Shown here: one piece after another, positions 1,158 to 15,866 of the stretch
Numbering within the stretch: position 1 is the first letter of the stretch
Layout of the letters: every line of letters starts with the position of its first letter
Assembly: GCA_021812265.1 (NCBI GenBank)
Contig: JAKAOI010000004.1
Coordinates: 1 to 17,625 of the forward strand
Length of the DNA: 17,625 nucleotides
Direction of reading: 5' to 3'
Source: Chloroflexota bacterium
GTDB taxonomy: Bacteria > Chloroflexota > Ktedonobacteria > Ktedonobacterales > JACDGC01
Translations under genes and position numbers: made by a program
Notes under the pieces: generated by a model
Seen by the model: only the letters and a program-made list of their open reading frames with translations
The model's database searches: none
Told to the model about the DNA's origin: nothing

Positions 1158-4100
1158 ATGATCTGCAAAAATTGCGGTTTCACGAATGCACAAGACGCGC
1201 GCAGCTGCGCTCATTGCGGTATGCCGCTCATCAGTTCCAATCAACTGATATCAAAAGCGCCCAGCCGGCCCAGAATGGCTCCGTTGGATCCGCAAAATAA
1301 TCCGGCCGGAGAGAATGCGCCCGGTGACAATAATTCTTATAATAGTAACCGGCGCGCTCCAAATATTGAGGCGAATATTCCGCCGGCGGGGCAACAGCCG
1401 CCGCAACAAAATAGCAATTCATCGGCTCCGCTGCGCCGGTCTGGCCCTATTCATCCTTCGGCGCCAAACAATATTTCCACGCAGCGCTCTAACGCAGGGT
1501 ATCCGTTTACAACACCGACACAGCAAACGCCAACTCCGCAGCAATTTGTTCGCCCGCCCAGCCAGCCACAGCATCGTTCAGGGCCGGTATATCCTGCTTC
1601 ACAGCCTGCGTCAGAGCCTAATAACCGGCTGCCTGCCCCATATCGGCCGAATATGCCGAATATACCAAATGTATCAAATAATCCCGGATCGCCGTCTTTT
1701 GGCGCAAGTTCTATGCAGCCTTCCCGGCAATTTCGCTCTATGCAGCAGGGACAATCCGGTCAATGGGATTTATTTGAGGATGTCAGCAGTTTATCCGGGC
1801 AGTGGAACATGCAGCAATTTCGGAATACTGGTTTTGGAGAAGGAAGTGTTATTCGCAATGGCTTAATTCGTGTCTTAGGTGTGTACGAACCAATACGAAA
1901 AATTACGACGTCATCCACCGTTCAGCGCTGGATGGCGGTAGATATGAGCCGAGGCGGCGATCGCATCATTCTTGCGCGTATTCCATTAAATGATATGAAC
2001 GCAATAGAAGCCGATTTTTCTCGCGAAATGATCTCTAATAAACTGCGAGATATTAGTGAACACCCGAATGTACAAAAATATATAGATTCTTTTATCGATC
2101 AACAGGCAATCTATTTTGTATTTGAAGCAATAGAAGGCAGATGGCTGAGTGATCGTGTGGAAGAATTAGGGACCATAAGTGAACAAGCAGCTAAAAAATT
2201 ACTTGGGCAAGTTTTAGATGTATGTGAATTTTTAGAGAACCAAAGGCCATCTGTACCGCATGGCGAAATTTCTCCCGATTCGTTGTTGTTATCAGAGAAT
2301 GAAGAGAAAATATATGTGTGCAATTGGTCTATCCCGCTGTTAGCGCAGACCTTGAATGTAAAACTTCCCAGTAAACCAGCGCTGATAAAAAACTTTTCAC
2401 CGCCGGAAGCGGAAGCTGATGAGCCTAAAATTGCGAATGACTTATATGCCGCCGCCGCTTCATTTTATTACGCTATGACTAACGCCAGTATGTCGGTTTA
2501 TCGTTCCGGGCTATTTCAGCCACTTCATCAGCTCAACCCTGCAGTTAGCGCATCAATGGATCGTTTTATTAATAAATCGCTTAGGGTTTCACCGGCGCAG
2601 CGCTATATCGATACTGAAGATATGCGCATTGCGCTGGAAAAAACTGACCACAGACCGCAAAAGAAAGTGAAAGACGCTCAAAGCTCAGCCGGCGGTATGT
2701 CGATTATCATAACTACAATTGTGTCGCTTATTATTATTACCACATTGATCACCGGCCTTATTATTCATTCGCAATTTTCATCGTCTTTTATTGCGGCAAC
2801 TCCGCAGCCTTCGCCAACTGTTAATCCTACCGCTGTTGCATTAACGCAGGAAGGTTTGGGCATAAGCGAGGGCCAAACGGCGTTTTATATTTCCGACACA
2901 TCGGTGTATAAACTCACACCACAGCAAATCGTTGCGCAAGCTTCGTCCGGAACCGCTATACCGGCGGCGGCTGTTGCAGAAGCGCAAACAATGATCGGCG
3001 CGCAATATTACGCTAAAGGCGATTACGCCAACGCCGTCATCTATTTTGCCGACGCCACGAAAACAGATCCCAGCAACCCCGAAGCCGCTATTTACCTGGC
3101 CAATGCGCAAATTATGGCTGGCAGCCACACAAATTTTATTACTCTTGCAGTGGCCAGCAGTTTCAGTGGGCAAGATCTTCCGTCGACATTGCAAATTTTG
3201 CGCGGCATATCGATTGCGCAAAATGAAATCAATTCCAGCGATGTGTATCCCGGGAAAGTAAAAATTGCTATTGCCAGTGTTGGGGCTGATGGCGCCGGCG
3301 CAGTTCCTGTTGCATCATACCTTGTGAATATGGTGCAAAACGGCAACGCCGACCATGTTGTTGGAGTTATTACATGGGCGCCAAATAACTTAAACGCAAA
3401 TTCGGCAGTGTTAATTCAACAGGCGGCAAATATCCTTACTTCTGCGCAAATTCCCATTATTGCGCCTGAAAGTGTTACCGATTCTATAGGCGGAACGCCG
3501 TATTTCTACACCATAACGGCTTCGGTAGCTGATCAAATGACTGCTATGGCGCAATTCATCTTGCAAAAATTCCGGCCGTTTTCCATTGAGCTTGCTGTAG
3601 ACCCATCTAATGCGAGAAACCAAGAAGCGGCGTTTATTATGAGCAAAGTTCTTAGCAGCATTCCGAATGGACCCAATGTGCACACAGATAATATTTCACT
3701 GCAAAGCAGCGCGTCTTTTATCACCGCCGCAAAAGATACGGGCATATATGGATCCGGCGCGGTGATTGTAATAGGCAGTGACCAAGATACAATTGCTATG
3801 AACAAAGCGTTGATATCTTTTGGCTTAAATACCCCCATTCTTGCTGGGCCAATGGCGGATTCTCCGGCGTTGCTTGGGCAAGGCAGCTCTGCTATGGCGC
3901 AGTATGCGCTGCAGCATGCGTCTCAGATGAGCAATATTTATACGCTAAGCCTGGCCGATCCATCAGTTTGGAGCTATTTAAATCAGCAGCCTCCTCAGTT
4001 TTTTCAAAAGTTTTATGCAACTTTTTCAACGCAAACCAATGTTATTAACGCAGATCAAAACGCGATTTTATCTTATGACTCGATGTATTTAATAACGACA

Positions 4101-4400
4101 TCGTTAGTAAATTCAAATGGATGGACAAATAAAATCATTCCTTCCGCGCAATCACTTCGCGACTCGTTGGATAATGTTACGCCCAGCCAGCCATTTAACG
4201 GAATCAGCGGGGTTATTGCTTTTGATAGTCAAGGTACAATTGTTCATCGCGCTATGGAAATTTTAAATCTGCAAGTCAGTCAAAATTCGGTGAATAGCAG
4301 CGGGCAACATAACTTGGTTTGGCAGATTGTTTCCATTGTGAATGGCGCCAATGCGATTTGCGCTACTTCTGCGCAGCAAAATTCCTGCGCGCCTATTTAA
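1158..4400 (+). CDS. Zinc ribbon - pseudokinase - TM - TPR - periplasmic-binding receptor fusion
   Basis: A 1080-residue membrane protein with five parts. (1) Residues 1-22 form a zinc ribbon with CxxC pairs at Cys3/Cys6 and Cys17/Cys20. (2) Residues 30-200 are a Pro/Gln/Asn/Ser-rich, probably disordered linker. (3) Residues 236-495 are a protein-kinase-like domain. The VAxK lysine is Arg274 (ILARIPL), the HRD loop reads HGEISPDSL (368-376) and DFG is replaced around CNWS (388-391), so catalysis is unlikely. (4) Residues 514-537 are one hydrophobic membrane helix. (5) Outside, a TPR-like pair lies at 605-654 and a Leu/Ile/Val-binding type 1 periplasmic-binding fold at about 658-1065. Cys1068 and Cys1077 could form a disulfide. 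The likely role is sensing an extracellular small ligand and signalling inward by interaction rather than phosphorylation. This is inferred. It has its own promoter and is followed by lon. The ATG is supported by GAAGG nine bases upstream. Confidence 0.8.
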   Translation: MICKNCGFTNAQDARSCAHCGMPLISSNQLISKAPSRPRMAPLDPQNNPAGENAPGDNNSYNSNRRAPNIEANIPPAGQQPPQQNSNSSAPLRRSGPIHPSAPNNISTQRSNAGYPFTTPTQQTPTPQQFVRPPSQPQHRSGPVYPASQPASEPNNRLPAPYRPNMPNIPNVSNNPGSPSFGASSMQPSRQFRSMQQGQSGQWDLFEDVSSLSGQWNMQQFRNTGFGEGSVIRNGLIRVLGVYEPIRKITTSSTVQRWMAVDMSRGGDRIILARIPLNDMNAIEADFSREMISNKLRDISEHPNVQKYIDSFIDQQAIYFVFEAIEGRWLSDRVEELGTISEQAAKKLLGQVLDVCEFLENQRPSVPHGEISPDSLLLSENEEKIYVCNWSIPLLAQTLNVKLPSKPALIKNFSPPEAEADEPKIANDLYAAAASFYYAMTNASMSVYRSGLFQPLHQLNPAVSASMDRFINKSLRVSPAQRYIDTEDMRIALEKTDHRPQKKVKDAQSSAGGMSIIITTIVSLIIITTLITGLIIHSQFSSSFIAATPQPSPTVNPTAVALTQEGLGISEGQTAFYISDTSVYKLTPQQIVAQASSGTAIPAAAVAEAQTMIGAQYYAKGDYANAVIYFADATKTDPSNPEAAIYLANAQIMAGSHTNFITLAVASSFSGQDLPSTLQILRGISIAQNEINSSDVYPGKVKIAIASVGADGAGAVPVASYLVNMVQNGNADHVVGVITWAPNNLNANSAVLIQQAANILTSAQIPIIAPESVTDSIGGTPYFYTITASVADQMTAMAQFILQKFRPFSIELAVDPSNARNQEAAFIMSKVLSSIPNGPNVHTDNISLQSSASFITAAKDTGIYGSGAVIVIGSDQDTIAMNKALISFGLNTPILAGPMADSPALLGQGSSAMAQYALQHASQMSNIYTLSLADPSVWSYLNQQPPQFFQKFYATFSTQTNVINADQNAILSYDSMYLITTSLVNSNGWTNKIIPSAQSLRDSLDNVTPSQPFNGISGVIAFDSQGTIVHRAMEILNLQVSQNSVNSSGQHNLVWQIVSIVNGANAICATSAQQNSCAPI

Positions 4401-10402: not shown

Positions 10403-10411
10403 TAGTGGGGT

Positions 10412-10417
10412 TAGAAT
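10412..10417 (+). promoter_or_regulatory. -10 element of the pst operon promoter
   Basis: TAGAAT (10412-10417) is the best -10 hexamer before pstS. The expected -35 position (10389-10394) shows no consensus hexamer and is overlapped by the TTAACA repeats, as in activator-dependent Pho promoters. Confidence 0.5.
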
Positions 10418-10423
10418 CAGTGC

Positions 10424-10448
10424 GGAACTTCAAATTGAAGTTTTTTTT
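10424..10448 (+). promoter_or_regulatory. Terminator-like hairpin in the pstS leader
   Basis: AACTTC (10426-10431) pairs with GAAGTT (10437-10442) around AAATT, and can be extended by two G-U pairs. The right arm runs into eight T (10441-10448). It lies between the -10 and the ribosome site. The stem is AT-rich and weak, so it may act as an attenuator or pause, or may have no effect. Confidence 0.4.
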
Positions 10449-10467
10449 CAACACTTTTGGAGGAATT

Positions 10468-11511
10468 ATGACACTGAACCAATTCGGCCGCAAATTATTT
10501 ACTGTTGCCGGCGTTGTAGGGGTTGCTGCGATGATGTTTGTTGCAGCTTGCGGAACCTCTTCTACAGGATCAAACAGCTCATCCGTAAATACTTCTCTTA
10601 CTGCTTGCCACGTTACCGCGGCAGATCTTACTCTTAGCACTTCTTCCACAACACCGGCGGCTCCGACAGCAGTTACGGGCCTTTCCGGTCAGCAATTAAC
10701 CATTGACGGTTCTTCGGCGCTTCAGCCATTCTTTGTGGCCGCCGCGAAATATTTCGATCAAGGCCAAGGCACACACACAACAGCTGTTGCTAATGGATCT
10801 GGCAATGGATTAAAAGACGTTGAATCTGGCGCAGTACAAATCGGCATGTCGGATTTCTTCTATCAGCAAGACCCCGCTGTTCCCAATCCCTCTACTGTTT
10901 TTGCAGACCTTGTGGATCACCAAGTAGCGGTTGTTCCGTTCTCATTAGTCGTCAGCAAAGATATCAGCTCGCAGATTGAGAACCTGACAACACAAGAAAT
11001 TGTCGATATTTACACCGGCAAAGTTACAAACTGGAGCCAAATTGGCGGACCCAACGAATTAGTTACTGTTATTAATCGCCCGCTGGTTTCCGGCACACGC
11101 GCCACATTCCGCAAATATGTGTTAAATGGCGCTACTGAAAGCGCTGGCACAACCTTAACACAAGACACCACCGGCGCGGTTGCCGCTGCTTTAAGCACAA
11201 CCAACGGCGCTATCGGATATGTTGCTAACGGCTTCGTGTTGAATCCGCAATATTCCAGCTCTATTTTCCCAATCTGCATTAATGGATTTGGCGCAACATC
11301 ACAAAATATCAATAGCGGAAGCTATTTATATTGGAGCTTTGAGCACGCTTATACCAAAGGCACACCGGCAGCAAACAGCGCAGCGCAGCAATTCTTGAAT
11401 TATGTTGTAACTGCTCCGGTGCAAAATTCCTTACTGCCTCAGTTAGGTTACTTGCAAGTCAGCAATTTAACACAGGCCGCCCTTGCCACACACCCCGCGC
11501 CTACCAACTAA
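10468..11511 (+). CDS. pstS: Phosphate ABC transporter, substrate-binding lipoprotein PstS
   Basis: A 347-residue high-affinity phosphate-binding lipoprotein. I chose ATG 10468, with GGAGG (10459-10463), over the longer frame from 10405. Only this start places a clean signal peptide at the N-terminus, with lipobox FVAAC and lipidated Cys28. A Ser/Thr-rich tether (29-72) precedes the binding domain. Likely phosphate contacts are the GSSAL motif (81-85), Ser111 in NGSGNG, Asp129 in MSDFF, and SGTR (208-211). Length is usual for the family. It is first in the pst operon behind the candidate Pho box, and a stem-loop after the gene could let it be expressed above the membrane components. It delivers phosphate to PstC/PstA. 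Confidence 0.95.
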   Translation: MTLNQFGRKLFTVAGVVGVAAMMFVAACGTSSTGSNSSSVNTSLTACHVTAADLTLSTSSTTPAAPTAVTGLSGQQLTIDGSSALQPFFVAAAKYFDQGQGTHTTAVANGSGNGLKDVESGAVQIGMSDFFYQQDPAVPNPSTVFADLVDHQVAVVPFSLVVSKDISSQIENLTTQEIVDIYTGKVTNWSQIGGPNELVTVINRPLVSGTRATFRKYVLNGATESAGTTLTQDTTGAVAAALSTTNGAIGYVANGFVLNPQYSSSIFPICINGFGATSQNINSGSYLYWSFEHAYTKGTPAANSAAQQFLNYVVTAPVQNSLLPQLGYLQVSNLTQAALATHPAPTN

Positions 11512-11558
11512 TTTAGCAACATAAATCAGTCGGCACGCTCGGAAGAGAATAAAAGAGA

Positions 11559-11599
11559 AAGGCAGAGAAACAATGATGATTCAGAGTTCTCTCTGCCTT
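11559..11599 (+). promoter_or_regulatory. Stem-loop between pstS and pstC
   Basis: AAGGCAGAGA (11559-11568) and TCTCTGCCTT (11590-11599) are perfect 10-base arms with a 21-base loop. No T-run follows. In the 120-base gap between pstS and pstC it may stabilise the pstS message or partly block read-through, giving more binding protein than permease. Confidence 0.6.
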
Positions 11600-11631
11600 A
11601 TCGAATGTAAAGATACAGGAGAAATCCTATT

Positions 11632-12609
11632 ATGAGCAAAGCGCAGATTCAACAAGCTGATTCTGCAGCAAGGCTTGCCGGATCAGGCAAATTTTCTTTA
11701 AAAAAATTATTTGATGACTCGGCTACCATCTACTTTACTATTTGCGCGCTGATAGTTATTGCAACGTTACTGTTGGTATATGTCAATATTGGCTCTCAAG
11801 CCTATCAAACATTTACGCAATGGCATATTTCACTGACAAATTTATTCACCTCAAATAATTGGGACGCAGTCAACAATTTTGGGTTAAAAGCAAACTTTAG
11901 CGGAACACTTATGTTAGTTATACTTACGGTGTTTATTTCCGCGCCATTTTCTGTTGGTATGGCTATTTTTATTGCCGAAATTGCGCCAAACTGGATACAG
12001 GCTCCCATGCGCGGCGCGGTAGAGTTGTTTCTTGGTATACCATCAGTTATTTTTGGTTTACTTGGCCTTATTGTTGTTGTTCCGTTTGTACGCAATGTTA
12101 TGAACTCGCTTGCAGGCGCATATCTATACAATGGTTATGGAATTATTGCGGCAATTATTATTGTGACATTTATGGTTCTGCCAACCATCACCACCATTTC
12201 AATCGACGCTATTCGCGCTGTGCCTAGGGAAATTCGTGAAGGAAGCTTGGCGCTGGGCGCAACTCGCTGGCAAACCATTCGCAACGCTGTGTTGCCTGCT
12301 GCGCTTCCCGGTGTGATGACCGGCGTAATTCTTGGAGTAACCAGAGCGCTTGGTGAAACGGTAGCTGTGGCGTTTGTCATTGGCGGCGCCGAACAATTTC
12401 CGTTTACTGTAAACGCAACCGCCCCGTTTATACATTTCAGCAATGGCTCTGACGTGCTGACAACATTGCTGCTGTTTAATTTCAAAGAAGCCACAAATAA
12501 TACACCGTTATATAGTGTGTTATATACTATCTCATTTATGTTGCTTATTATTTCAGCAATAATGATAGCCATCAGCCGATATTTTGCCTCAAGGAGGGTC
12601 TATCGATGA
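11632..12609 (+). CDS. pstC: Phosphate ABC transporter permease PstC
   Basis: A 325-residue inner-membrane permease, one half of the phosphate channel. A short cytoplasmic N-terminus precedes the first helix (about 31-53), and the core helices begin near residue 90. The cytoplasmic coupling loop that contacts PstB (EAA motif) is REIREGSLALGATRW (199-213), followed by LPAALPG, which is typical of PstC. RALGET (238-243) is also conserved. The start is ATG 11632 with AGGAGA (11617-11622). The stop overlaps the pstA start by four bases (ATGA), so translation of the two permeases is coupled. It partners PstA in a heterodimer. Confidence 0.95.
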   Translation: MSKAQIQQADSAARLAGSGKFSLKKLFDDSATIYFTICALIVIATLLLVYVNIGSQAYQTFTQWHISLTNLFTSNNWDAVNNFGLKANFSGTLMLVILTVFISAPFSVGMAIFIAEIAPNWIQAPMRGAVELFLGIPSVIFGLLGLIVVVPFVRNVMNSLAGAYLYNGYGIIAAIIIVTFMVLPTITTISIDAIRAVPREIREGSLALGATRWQTIRNAVLPAALPGVMTGVILGVTRALGETVAVAFVIGGAEQFPFTVNATAPFIHFSNGSDVLTTLLLFNFKEATNNTPLYSVLYTISFMLLIISAIMIAISRYFASRRVYR

Positions 12610-13538
12610 GCAGCATAGCCGAGTCGTTAGTGAAAACCATGGAAAAACAAACACAAGTTCGCGCCGCAAGAAGACAGAGAGCAAAAATAACGAACCAAGT
12701 TATGAATGGTGTATTTTGGCTTGTTGCCGCCATTGTACTTTCTGCGCTTCTTTTTGTTTTGGGATATGTTGTGCTGAACGGGTACTCATATGTTACCGTT
12801 AAGTTTTTAACCGGAAGTGACTTTGCAACCGGTATTGCGCCGCAATTATTCAATACACTGTATATTACTGTCGGCGCGTTGATTCCTCTTTTTGTCATCG
12901 GTGTCAGCGCAGCTATTTATGTGTCAGAATATGCGCGGCAAGGGTGGTTTTTAAATATCTTGCGCTTTGCCTCGGATACATTAACCAGTGTGCCATCCAT
13001 CGTGATTGGTCTTTTGGGGTTTTTGTTGTTTGTAACTAACTTTGGTAATGGCCCCCGCTGGGGATTTTCGCGGGCAGCGGGAATTTTAGCGCTTACGATA
13101 TTAAATTTGCCGTGGATGCTGCGCGCAGCAGAGGACGCTTTACGCGCCGTGCCAAAAGATTTCCGCGAGGCCAGTATGGCGCTTGGCGCAAATAAATTTC
13201 AAACAGTTACCCGCGCTATATTGCCCGCTGCAATTCCGGGATTGGTTACTGCAACACTGATAGTGGCAGGCCGTATTATCGGCGAAACTGCCGCGCTCAT
13301 CTATACTTCCGGCGAGGCTGGGCCAACAGCAGGCTGGTTTACTCTTAATCCATTTTTTGCCGGAGATACGCTTTCGGTGCATATATATTCGTTATTTGCT
13401 GATAACCCCACTACCGGCGCATACCAAGGCAGACTTGCTACTGCGGTGCTGCTGCTTGTTTTAATTATTGTGATTAACGGCACGGCGCGATTTCTTGGCC
13501 AACGGTTACATCAGCGATTTTCAGGTAAAAAAGCGTAA
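12606..13538 (+). CDS. pstA: Phosphate ABC transporter permease PstA
   Basis: A 310-residue inner-membrane permease that pairs with PstC. A basic N-terminus (residues 10-30) precedes helix one (33-57). The EAA coupling loop is KDFREASMALGANKF (184-198), followed by ILPAAIPG, and RIIGETAAL (223-231) matches the PstA family. The start ATG 12606 overlaps the pstC TGA and is preceded by the strong ribosome site AAGGAGG (12591-12597) inside pstC. The stop at 13536-13538 is 15 bases before the chosen pstB start. There is nothing odd in length or motifs. Confidence 0.95.
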   Translation: MSSIAESLVKTMEKQTQVRAARRQRAKITNQVMNGVFWLVAAIVLSALLFVLGYVVLNGYSYVTVKFLTGSDFATGIAPQLFNTLYITVGALIPLFVIGVSAAIYVSEYARQGWFLNILRFASDTLTSVPSIVIGLLGFLLFVTNFGNGPRWGFSRAAGILALTILNLPWMLRAAEDALRAVPKDFREASMALGANKFQTVTRAILPAAIPGLVTATLIVAGRIIGETAALIYTSGEAGPTAGWFTLNPFFAGDTLSVHIYSLFADNPTTGAYQGRLATAVLLLVLIIVINGTARFLGQRLHQRFSGKKA

Positions 13539-13553
13539 GGAGCTTCATTGTTC

Positions 13554-14441
13554 ATGTCTCAACAAAACTCTTCTCTTAATAATTCACCTTTAACTACTGT
13601 TTCCAAAGACGGGGCGATTAAGCGAGTAAATGAAGAACGGCTTTTAACATCGGCTGAAACAGTGACCAAGATGCGCGCGCCGACAGCGCCTTTGAAAATT
13701 CAGACCAATACTTTGAATATCTATTATGGCGCAAACCATGCCATAAAAAGTGTTTCAATGCCGATTCCCGAAAAACAAGTTACTGCGCTTATGGGGCCAT
13801 CGGGCTGCGGTAAGTCAACGTTTTTAAAGTCGCTGAACCGTATGTTGGATATTATACCCGACACGCATATTTCCGGAGAAGTGCTGTTTGATAACAAAAA
13901 TGTTTATGCGCACGGAATTGATGTTGTGGAATTACGGCAGCGGCTGGGTATGGTATTTCAACGACCCAATCCGTTTCCTAAATCTATTTTTGAAAATGTT
14001 GCTTACGGATTAAAAATTATGGGCGGCTTCAGTCGCAGTGAAATTGCCGACCGAGTAGAAACAAGTCTGCGCGGCGCGGCGCTTTGGGATGAAGTGCAAA
14101 ACCGGTTGAATCAAAGCGCGCTGGGATTATCCGGCGGGCAGCAGCAGCGGCTGTGCATTGCCCGCGCGCTGGCGGTTGCCCCCGAAGTGCTGTTGATGGA
14201 TGAGCCGGCTTCAGCGCTAGACCCAATTGCGACATTGAAAATTGAAGATTTGATCCATGAGCTGCGTCAGCAGTATACTATTGTCATTGTGACTCATAAT
14301 TTGCAGCAGGCAACTAGGGTTTCACAGTATACCGGATTTTTCTTGACCGGCGCGCTTATAGAATTTGGACCAACCGCGGATGTATTTGAACATTCGCTGG
14401 ATGAACGCACCTATGATTTTATCATGGGGCGATTTGGATAA
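13554..14441 (+). CDS. pstB: Phosphate ABC transporter ATP-binding protein PstB
   Basis: A 295-residue cytoplasmic ATPase that powers the PstCA channel. Motifs are Walker [10 protein letters not shown] (81-89), Q-loop Gln136 in VFQRPNPFP, signature LSGGQQQR (192-199), Walker B VLLMDE (212-217) and H-loop VTHN (246-249). The PstB-typical ending YDFIMGRFG is present. About 45 residues precede the ATPase core ([13 protein letters not shown]), a longer and probably disordered N-terminus than in E. coli PstB (257 residues). The start could be ATG 13554 or the in-frame TTG 13548. AAGGAG (13537-13542) is 11 and 5 bases away respectively; I prefer ATG. The order pstC-pstA-pstB-phoU is the classical one. 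Confidence 0.95.
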
Positions 14442-14493
14442 CTATTTGCATGATATTTGGCGTGCGCTGCCGGCAAAGACAGGAGTTTTTATT

Positions 14494-15147
14494 ATGGCGC
14501 GTGATGGATTTCAGATAGCGCTGCAGCAGATCGAAGAAGATTTGCTGAAGATGGCGGCTTTTGTTGAAGATGTTATAGCAAAGTCTATTCAGGCAATGAC
14601 TCGCAGCGATAATCGGCTGGCTGACACAATCATATCGAATGATTCGGTTGTAGATGATCTGCGGGAACACATTCATGAACATGTTGCGCTTACCATTGAA
14701 AAGTGGGCGCCCTTGGGCAAAGCATTGCGGCGTATTTTGGCGTATCTTGTCATTGCAGATGAATTGGAGCGCATGGGTGACTATGGCGTGCATGTTGCTC
14801 GCAGCGCGCACGCAGGATTTCCTTCCATGCCGCTGACGCTTATTGGCAAAATGAGTGAATTGGCGCAGCAAGTGCGCGTGCAGCTGCGAAGCGGTGTTGC
14901 CGCTTTTGCGCAAAATGACACCGACGCGGCGCGCGCCGTATGCTTGAATGATACAGTTATTGATTTAGCTTACAAAGCATTATACCGGGAACTTCTAAAA
15001 TATATGTGCGATTATTCAGACGCAGTGCAGGAAACAACTCAATTTTTGTTTACCATGCACGATTTGGAGCGCATCGGTGACCGTGTAGCGAACATTTGCG
15101 AGAGTATCATATATATAGAAACCGGTAAATATGAAAAACTTAATTAA
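14494..15147 (+). CDS. phoU: Phosphate signalling regulator PhoU
   Basis: A 217-residue all-helical protein made of two three-helix bundles. In the Pho system it links PstSCAB to the sensor kinase and restrains the regulon when phosphate is plentiful. Each bundle shows the metal-binding E-xxx-D signature: DELERMGD (89-96) and HDLERIGD (189-196). The chosen start is ATG 14494 (MARDGFQIAL), with AGGAG (14481-14485) eight bases upstream. The longer frame from 14365 would overlap pstB by 77 bases and adds a sequence not seen in the family. The gene lies 52 bases after pstB and 11 bases before the response regulator, so it is in the same operon. Confidence 0.94.
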   Translation: MARDGFQIALQQIEEDLLKMAAFVEDVIAKSIQAMTRSDNRLADTIISNDSVVDDLREHIHEHVALTIEKWAPLGKALRRILAYLVIADELERMGDYGVHVARSAHAGFPSMPLTLIGKMSELAQQVRVQLRSGVAAFAQNDTDAARAVCLNDTVIDLAYKALYRELLKYMCDYSDAVQETTQFLFTMHDLERIGDRVANICESIIYIETGKYEKLN

Positions 15148-15158
15148 AGGCTTACACC

Positions 15159-15866
15159 ATGGTTTACACAATTCTGCTGACTGAAGATGAAGCCTCCATT
15201 CGCGATATGCTTGCGTACCGGCTTCGCTCGGAAGGATATAATGTTATTACATCTTCCGACGGCCCCGATGCGCTGGAAGCGGCGCATAAAACACATCCCG
15301 ATCTCATTATTCTGGACCTTATGCTGCCGAAAATGGATGGATTGGAGGTGTGCAAGCAGTTACGGGCGAATACACAATTCCAATCGACTCCTATTATTAT
15401 GTTGACTGCGCGTGTAGAAGAAAGCGATAAAATTATCGGTTTAGAGCTAGGCGCAGATGACTATGTAACAAAACCGTTCAGTTGGCCGGAGTTGCGCGCA
15501 AGGATCCGCACTCAGCTTAGGCGTACCGAAACGGGAGGATCGGCGCGCGGAGATATAGCTGCGCATGGCGTGCTTGAAGCAGACGATATGATGGTGGATA
15601 TCGATCGCAGATTGGTTACGCGCAAATCGGTTGAAATAGAGTTGGCGGCGCGGCTGTTCGATTTATTGGTATATTTTATACAGCAGCGCGGGCTGGTTTT
15701 AACCCGCGCGCAACTGCTTGAAACGGTTTGGGGCTATGATTACGACGGTGATAATCGGACGGTAGATGTGCATGTACGCTGGCTGCGGGAAAAAATTGAG
15801 GACGATCCCTCCAACCCGCAATTTATTCAAACAGTGCGCGGAGTGGGGTATCGCTTCAAAATGTGA
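15159..15866 (+). CDS. phoB: OmpR/PhoB-family response regulator (likely PhoB/PhoP)
   Basis: A 235-residue two-component regulator. The receiver domain (1-120) has the acidic pocket Glu9/Asp10, phospho-acceptor Asp53 (ILDLMLPKMDG), Thr83 and Lys105 (TKPF). The C-terminal winged helix (about 137-234) contains VWGYDYDGDNRTVDVHVRWLR (190-210, binding helix) and ends with VRGVGYRF. ATG 15159 follows AAAGG (15146-15150). As the last gene of the pst-phoU operon it is the best candidate to bind the TTAACA repeats before pstS, which would give positive feedback. No histidine kinase follows: the next gene is convergent. The OmpR-family assignment is certain, and the PhoB role rests on context. Confidence 0.88.
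   Translation: MVYTILLTEDEASIRDMLAYRLRSEGYNVITSSDGPDALEAAHKTHPDLIILDLMLPKMDGLEVCKQLRANTQFQSTPIIMLTARVEESDKIIGLELGADDYVTKPFSWPELRARIRTQLRRTETGGSARGDIAAHGVLEADDMMVDIDRRLVTRKSVEIELAARLFDLLVYFIQQRGLVLTRAQLLETVWGYDYDGDNRTVDVHVRWLREKIEDDPSNPQFIQTVRGVGYRFKM

Follow-up and report, generated by a model that had tools for sequence, protein, structure and literature searches.

A putative solute-binding receptor with a predicted pseudokinase domain in Ktedonobacterales

Proteins that join a kinase domain and a solute-binding domain in one polypeptide have already been named, namely MSMEG_1200 and 260 more InterPro entries (PMC6069109), and in the GlnH-GlnX-PknG system of Actinobacteria a solute-binding protein signals to a kinase (PMC6069109, PMC8546545). 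EssB/YukC and MviN are non-catalytic precedents (PMC12599244, PMC9600267). We present a computational analysis of a receptor gene from a Ktedonobacterales genome of the phylum Chloroflexota, located at positions 1158..4400 (+ strand, as are all its features; one open reading frame, stop included) of a 17,625-nucleotide stretch of contig JAKAOI010000004.1, hereafter the window. An earlier note, written from the sequence of the window, had described the product as a one-protein sensor with a kinase-like domain, in words that imply a Ser/Thr receptor kinase. According to the predicted model, one chain carries a kinase fold and a solute-binding fold, separated by a single helix; the kinase fold, however, has lost its catalytic residues.

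Fold, motifs and constraint of the kinase domain

Residues 226-495 (window positions 1833..2642) form an intact bilobal protein-kinase fold in the predicted model, with PknB as a structural match, and the receptor scores above the cut-off of the Pfam Pkinase profile; the domain was modelled separately because whole-chain fold searches were filled by the binding domain. Chains of EssB or MviN do not appear in the 50 matches listed for this domain, an absence that carries no information. The structural comparison that the earlier note had proposed for residues 236-495 thus returned a kinase. The alignment, however, places Ala273 at the VAIK lysine (1974..1976), His368-Gly369-Glu370 in place of HRD (2259..2267), with Glu370 at the aspartate, and Asn389-Trp390-Ser391 in place of DFG (2322..2330), with Asn389 at the aspartate. 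A lysine stands, by eye, at the helix-C glutamate place of the alignment, and the loop lacks glycine.

A first motif alignment comprised 58 distinct fusions from the fetched loci, and the subsequent kinase-domain alignment has 94 rows (57 fusions, 30 kinases of family f1 and 7 others; L012, which is cut before the motifs, was left out). Motif states were taken from its columns, with DFS rows counted as Asp kept. The VAIK Lys, HRD Asp and DFG Asp are all absent in 22/22 orthologous fusions, which come from three families of one order, namely 5 genomes of the receptor's own family (f1), 6 of f4 and 11 of the Ktedonobacter/Thermogemmatispora family (f2). The letters that replace them vary (AEN, VEN, LML, LNS, LAV, QNG, QAG, RAL, RAY, RAH, HAF, YAY and YAF), and elsewhere in the domain D428 and R482 are invariant and E417 is more than 90% conserved in 21 rows. 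We conclude that the receptor's kinase domain is a pseudokinase, i.e., a kinase fold with degraded motifs from which inactivity is predicted. Since the catalytic residues are lost in the receptor and in all 22 orthologues, the label of Ser/Thr receptor kinase does not fit.

Some candidate interpretations were rejected along the way. A lysine at the start of strand 2 occurs in four Thermogemmatispora orthologues (L011, L014, L015, L016), and a WNK-like displaced lysine as a family feature was dismissed as it is absent from the receptor and the remaining orthologue rows. The NCBIfam match to the MADS6 kinase (E 9.1e-11, 41 bits vs a cut-off of 460) and those to PASTA and TOMM kinases, far below cut-off, reflect generic kinase similarity. 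A string test for K, HRD and DFG (22 pseudo, 27 active, 8 mixed, L012 omitted) was superseded by the column states; it had credited the orthologue L025 with a lysine one column off, where the true column holds His, and had called the paralogue L029 pseudo.

Constraint was assessed from the ratio of nonsynonymous to synonymous substitution rates (dN/dS) between the window genome and a congener (contig JAJYBV010000019.1 of the metagenome-assembled genome BP9.bin130, entered as both L002 and L084). The ratios, which are rough because synonymous divergence (dS) is mostly 0.7-1.8, come to 0.036 in the kinase domain, 0.056 in the part with the GISEG module and tetratricopeptide repeat (TPR)-like unit, 0.071 in the binding domain, 0.098 around the helix, 0.101 in the C-terminal tail and 0.12 in the linker; comparison genes of the same pair give 0.034 (lon), 0.099 (GH114-type) and 0.108 (LPG_synthase_TM-type). 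By this measure the dead kinase domain is the receptor's most constrained part and is under strong purifying selection.

Distribution, sister copies and history

Among the 47 genomes of the order, 44 match a 21-row profile at E<=1e-60, paralogues and partial matches included, and the expectation that the same domain order would recur in related genomes was borne out. When 400 genomes of the phylum were searched, with two candidates scored per genome, 40 matched at E<=1e-100, i.e., 40/47 within the order and 0/353 among the others. Outside the phylum the search for the fusion covered plasmid records and a protein collection: no plasmid record covered 80% of the query (0/464 with L035, 0/1 with the receptor), a protein-collection search with residues 430-916 of L011 reached fusions, and the other searches of that collection, which scored the best 7990 candidates by shared words, returned mostly generic kinases. 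One homologue, P0154, is annotated as a "bifunctional serine/threonine-protein kinase/ABC transporter substrate-binding protein".

Within the fetched set, sister copies occur only in f2 genomes, often in tandem and as triplets in L068, L069 and L070, while at E<=1e-60 each f1 genome has one match (G003 has two) and f4 genomes have none or one. Lys, Asp and Asp are kept in 29 of 35 paralogue rows; the other 6 are without one or two of them. A kinase tree, drawn by a quick method with the kinases of f1 genomes as outgroup and with long branches flagged, unites the dead fusions and L027, L030, L031 and L033 in one clade (Shimodaira-Hasegawa-like approximate likelihood ratio test, SH-aLRT, 99), with the paralogues as its sister group (support 87) and two further rows, from L097, among the outgroup. 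In the tree built from TPR and binding-domain columns alone, a branch with support 100 separates these 35 paralogues from the rest. The catalytic loss is common to the orthologues of all three families of the order, and the orthologues group by family. A single duplication with a single early loss of catalysis, after which each family inherited its own copy, would be the simplest history; the trees agree with this course of events but do not prove it.

Other arrangements of the same modules were seen. L027, L030, L031 and L033 (452-651 aa) are pseudokinase proteins in which the binding domain is missing, with CLN or CLH at the catalytic places and the zinc ribbon in 3/4. Thermogemmatispora-type genomes carry solute-binding receptor kinases three in tandem (L065 with L029, L068, L069, L070), with intact-motif copies beside copies short of one or two catalytic residues (KDN, KDG, RDG). 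Directly upstream of the orthologous receptor in G017, L097:6038-8065 encodes a protein of 675 aa whose kinase domain is degenerate (HGN, TNF); it also has a hydrophobic stretch, and its C-terminal part is PstS-like by eye, so that this may be another type of solute-binding domain fused to a kinase fold.

Other domains, binding pocket and gene neighbourhood

Profile searches and the predicted model agree with the domain order proposed earlier, namely zinc ribbon, kinase-like domain, helix, TPR-like unit and binding domain. The cytoplasmic N-terminal zinc ribbon (residues 1-26; 1158..1235), below cut-off for Pfam Zn_Ribbon_1, has Cys 3, 6, 17 and 20, all four of which are present in 18/18 orthologue rows having the N terminus (cut rows L012, L023 and L026 dropped); the two CxxC pairs are a zinc-ribbon signature, and metal binding is predicted. 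It is followed by a disordered linker rich in Pro, Gln and Asn (residues 27-225; 1236..1832; predicted local distance difference test score below 50 in the model). After the kinase domain, hydropathy and the model agree on the single transmembrane helix that had been anticipated, at residues 515-540 (2700..2777). The conserved juxtamembrane GISEG module (residues 563-585; 2844..2912) was recognized by alignment, with S570 and G572 invariant in 21 rows and G572 and D580 in 35 rows, and the TPR-like unit (residues 603-654; 2964..3119) has three helices in the model and scores 22.8 bits with Pfam TPR_19 vs a curated cut-off of 25. The chain ends, after the binding domain, in a two-cysteine tail plus stop (Cys1068, Cys1077; 4344..4400), which the alignment of C-terminal ends, printed for the last 20 residues only, shows in 11/11 f1/f4 rows vs 0/14 f2 rows. 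The two cysteines of this tail (4344-4397 without the stop) may perhaps form an extracytoplasmic disulfide.

The outer binding domain (residues 657-1062; 3126..4343) belongs to the Pfam family ANF_receptor and is of LivJ/LivK type by fold and profile searches: the fold search found a type I periplasmic-binding fold, and a profile of 24 binding domains matches LivJ 4gnr (E 3.6e-26). The sensor type named in the earlier note is therefore upheld; its amino-acid ligand is doubtful. We take Ser79, Thr102, Tyr150 and Glu226 to be the amino-acid contacts of LivJ, and at these places the alignments give N744, V773, R820 and D877 in the receptor, i.e., three of the four are changed and the acid is kept. 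In 7/7 paralogue rows the Tyr and the acid are present and Ser stands for Thr102, while Ser79 is present in 4/7. All four residues are retained in 4 of the 6 orthologue rows of f2 if Ser is accepted for Thr102 (L019 has a gap two columns ahead of that place); the exceptions are L025, with Thr for Ser79, and the Thermogemmatispora row L011, with Pro for Thr102 and Ala for Tyr150. In the 11 f1/f4 rows the Tyr is found in 0/11, Ser79 in 1/11, Thr or Ser at the Thr102 place in 8/11, and Asp or Glu in 8/11. Judged from these residues, an amino acid is a fair guess as ligand of the paralogues and a poor one for the receptor, whose pocket positions are changed; solved entries of this fold in the fold-search list bind amides, aromatic acids and other ligands.

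Clusters of open reading frames (ORFs) were compared between the window and 20 related loci, and an operon reading of the locus was rejected. The receptor is flanked by a GH114-type gene and lon, an order common to the congener only; the GH114-type gene, upstream at 183-995, is itself found only in the congener among the 21 loci. No partner importer gene adjoins the receptor in the window, in agreement with the earlier remark that transporter genes are not adjacent. Direct neighbours recur only in the congener L084, in Thermogemmatispora (L095, L096, L101, L102), in L098-L100 (one genus) and in f4, where 5/6 loci (L089, L090, L091, L092, L093; the sixth, L023, is a short contig) and no other of the 21 have beside the receptor a divergent membrane-protein gene that we take to be CPBP-like from its EE-FWRG motif. 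A cluster of ATP-binding cassette (ABC) ATPases (c1) occurs in 5/21 loci without ever adjoining the receptor, in L098 together with an ABC-2 membrane protein. Nine ORFs from the surroundings of the receptor in L098 and L088 were compared with Pfam; the hits were to acetyltransferases, to two ABC ATPases and to an ABC-2 membrane protein, with no amino-acid importer set. Elsewhere in the window, not adjoining the receptor, a phosphate cluster at 10405-15866 is of PstS/PstC/PstA/PstB/PhoU type followed by a PhoB-like response regulator (PBP_like_2, ABC ATPase, PhoU and response regulator were identified, PstC and PstA named by position); the rest of the window after it has no ORF for a histidine kinase.

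Proposed mechanism, alternatives and known systems

We lean towards the view that the protein is a receptor pseudokinase, with a sensor outside and, inside, a non-phosphorylating kinase fold acting as an allosteric or scaffold surface; the receptor would then probably signal by binding its partner rather than by phosphorylating it. We infer the signalling steps, while the topology, the motif-dead active site, the conserved fold, the selection and the grouping by family were shown with the sequences and models. A small extracellular ligand would close the outer binding domain, and the TPR-like unit, the GISEG module and the helix would pass this closure on, so that the cytoplasmic halves pair or orient differently. 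The pseudokinase would offer an allosteric or scaffold surface to a cytoplasmic partner without phosphorylation, the zinc ribbon possibly being a second docking site. The partner would most likely be an active Ser/Thr kinase, such as the intact sister receptors in the Ktedonobacter/Thermogemmatispora family or other Hanks kinases in f1.

Several observations weigh against this proposal. Inactivity of the kinase domain is read from motif evidence alone, and some proteins with degraded kinase motifs, such as SelO and SidJ, are enzymes (PMC12599244). Ligand gating is uncertain since the pocket is changed in f1 and f4. With the exception of the zinc ribbon, dS is near saturation, and the 26-codon zinc ribbon itself has a dN/dS of 0.79 at a dS of 0.23. 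Sequence, model and neighbourhood analyses yielded no ligand, partner or output for the receptor, and gene neighbourhoods give no functional lead, as outside congeners and Thermogemmatispora only the CPBP-like gene of f4 recurs.

The altered pocket could also indicate a constitutive scaffold, in which the outer domain binds protein or envelope instead of a small ligand and the pseudokinase anchors cytoplasmic partners at the membrane ungated. The scarcity of the Tyr150-place Tyr (0/11) and the Ser79-place Ser (1/11) in f1/f4 rows, which keep the acid in 8/11, would fit this alternative, as would the faster evolution of the binding domain than of the dead kinase (0.071 vs 0.036) and the non-sensing precedent of EssB/YukC. 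We nevertheless regard it as unlikely, given that the binding fold and the acid D877 are kept, the binding domain is still constrained at 0.071, all four pocket positions persist in 4/6 f2 orthologue rows, and pockets of this fold are replaceable.

Alternatives that grant the kinase fold an activity appear very unlikely, and about equally so. Repurposing for another reaction, e.g., AMP transfer or glutamylation, has examples in SelO and SidJ (PMC12599244), but the residues at the VAIK, HRD and DFG positions vary from one orthologue to the next, which is not expected of a conserved new active site there. An active Ser/Thr receptor kinase using displaced residues would agree with the above-cut-off Pkinase score, the intact fold and the strand-2 lysine of L011, L014, L015 and L016, but that lysine is missing in the receptor and the other orthologue rows, and Lys, Asp and Asp are gone in 22/22. 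The loss of catalytic residues might finally suggest a decaying gene without function, which we consider extremely improbable with the frame open in 22 orthologous rows and a kinase-domain dN/dS of 0.036.

On a wider scale, and with slightly less than even confidence, we propose that the solute-gated receptor pseudokinase is lineage-wide, arose by one ancestral duplication, and serves active solute-binding receptor kinases, or other Hanks kinases, as a partner without catalysis of its own, in a prokaryotic parallel to animal receptors that combine a periplasmic-binding-protein (PBP)-type sensor with a pseudokinase. The sensor of the animal receptor GC-A has a PBP-type fold. The family offers both sides of a test, i.e., a dead-kinase receptor with a screenable sensor fold and intact-motif sister receptors; there are named species in the genera concerned (Thermogemmatispora onikobensis, Ktedonobacter sp. 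SOSP1-85), and the family makes extracellular solute signalling through a kinase fold without phosphotransfer testable.

The receptor shares features with several described systems. The receptor guanylyl cyclases GC-A and GC-B likewise have an extracellular ligand-binding domain, a single helix and a cytoplasmic kinase homology domain (PMC9672810), but they are animal proteins with the reverse chain order and a cyclase output; the likeness is one of design, and descent is not claimed. EssB/YukC has a cytoplasmic pseudokinase, a single membrane helix and an extracellular C-terminal domain (PMC9600267), but that domain is all-helical, and the protein belongs to a type VII secretion system. The ActPs3 pseudokinases, MviN among them, have lost the three motifs, and many have a membrane segment C-terminal to the domain; they are actinobacterial, MviN recruits FhaA once phosphorylated by PknB, and a solute-binding domain is not described for them (PMC12599244). 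The words "chloroflexi", "periplasmic", "solute-binding" and "zinc" are absent from the main text of that review. In GlnH-GlnX-PknG, an extracytoplasmic amino-acid-binding protein is linked across the membrane to a Hanks kinase that has TPRs and, in many cases, a cysteine domain for metal binding (PMC6069109, PMC8546545), but the system consists of three proteins with an active kinase and cytoplasmic TPRs, whereas the receptor is one protein with a dead kinase and its TPR-like unit outside. The result listings of searches of the open-access literature, with subscription papers outside their scope, showed no description of a pseudokinase-solute-binding receptor. MSMEG_1200-type fusions likewise have a kinase fold and a solute-binding domain in one polypeptide (PMC6069109); compared by description, the receptor differs in that its whole clade is without catalytic residues and that it has a zinc ribbon and a TPR-like unit in addition. 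The novelty that the earlier note implied for a one-protein sensor is thus partial, as kinase-solute-binding fusions had already been named.
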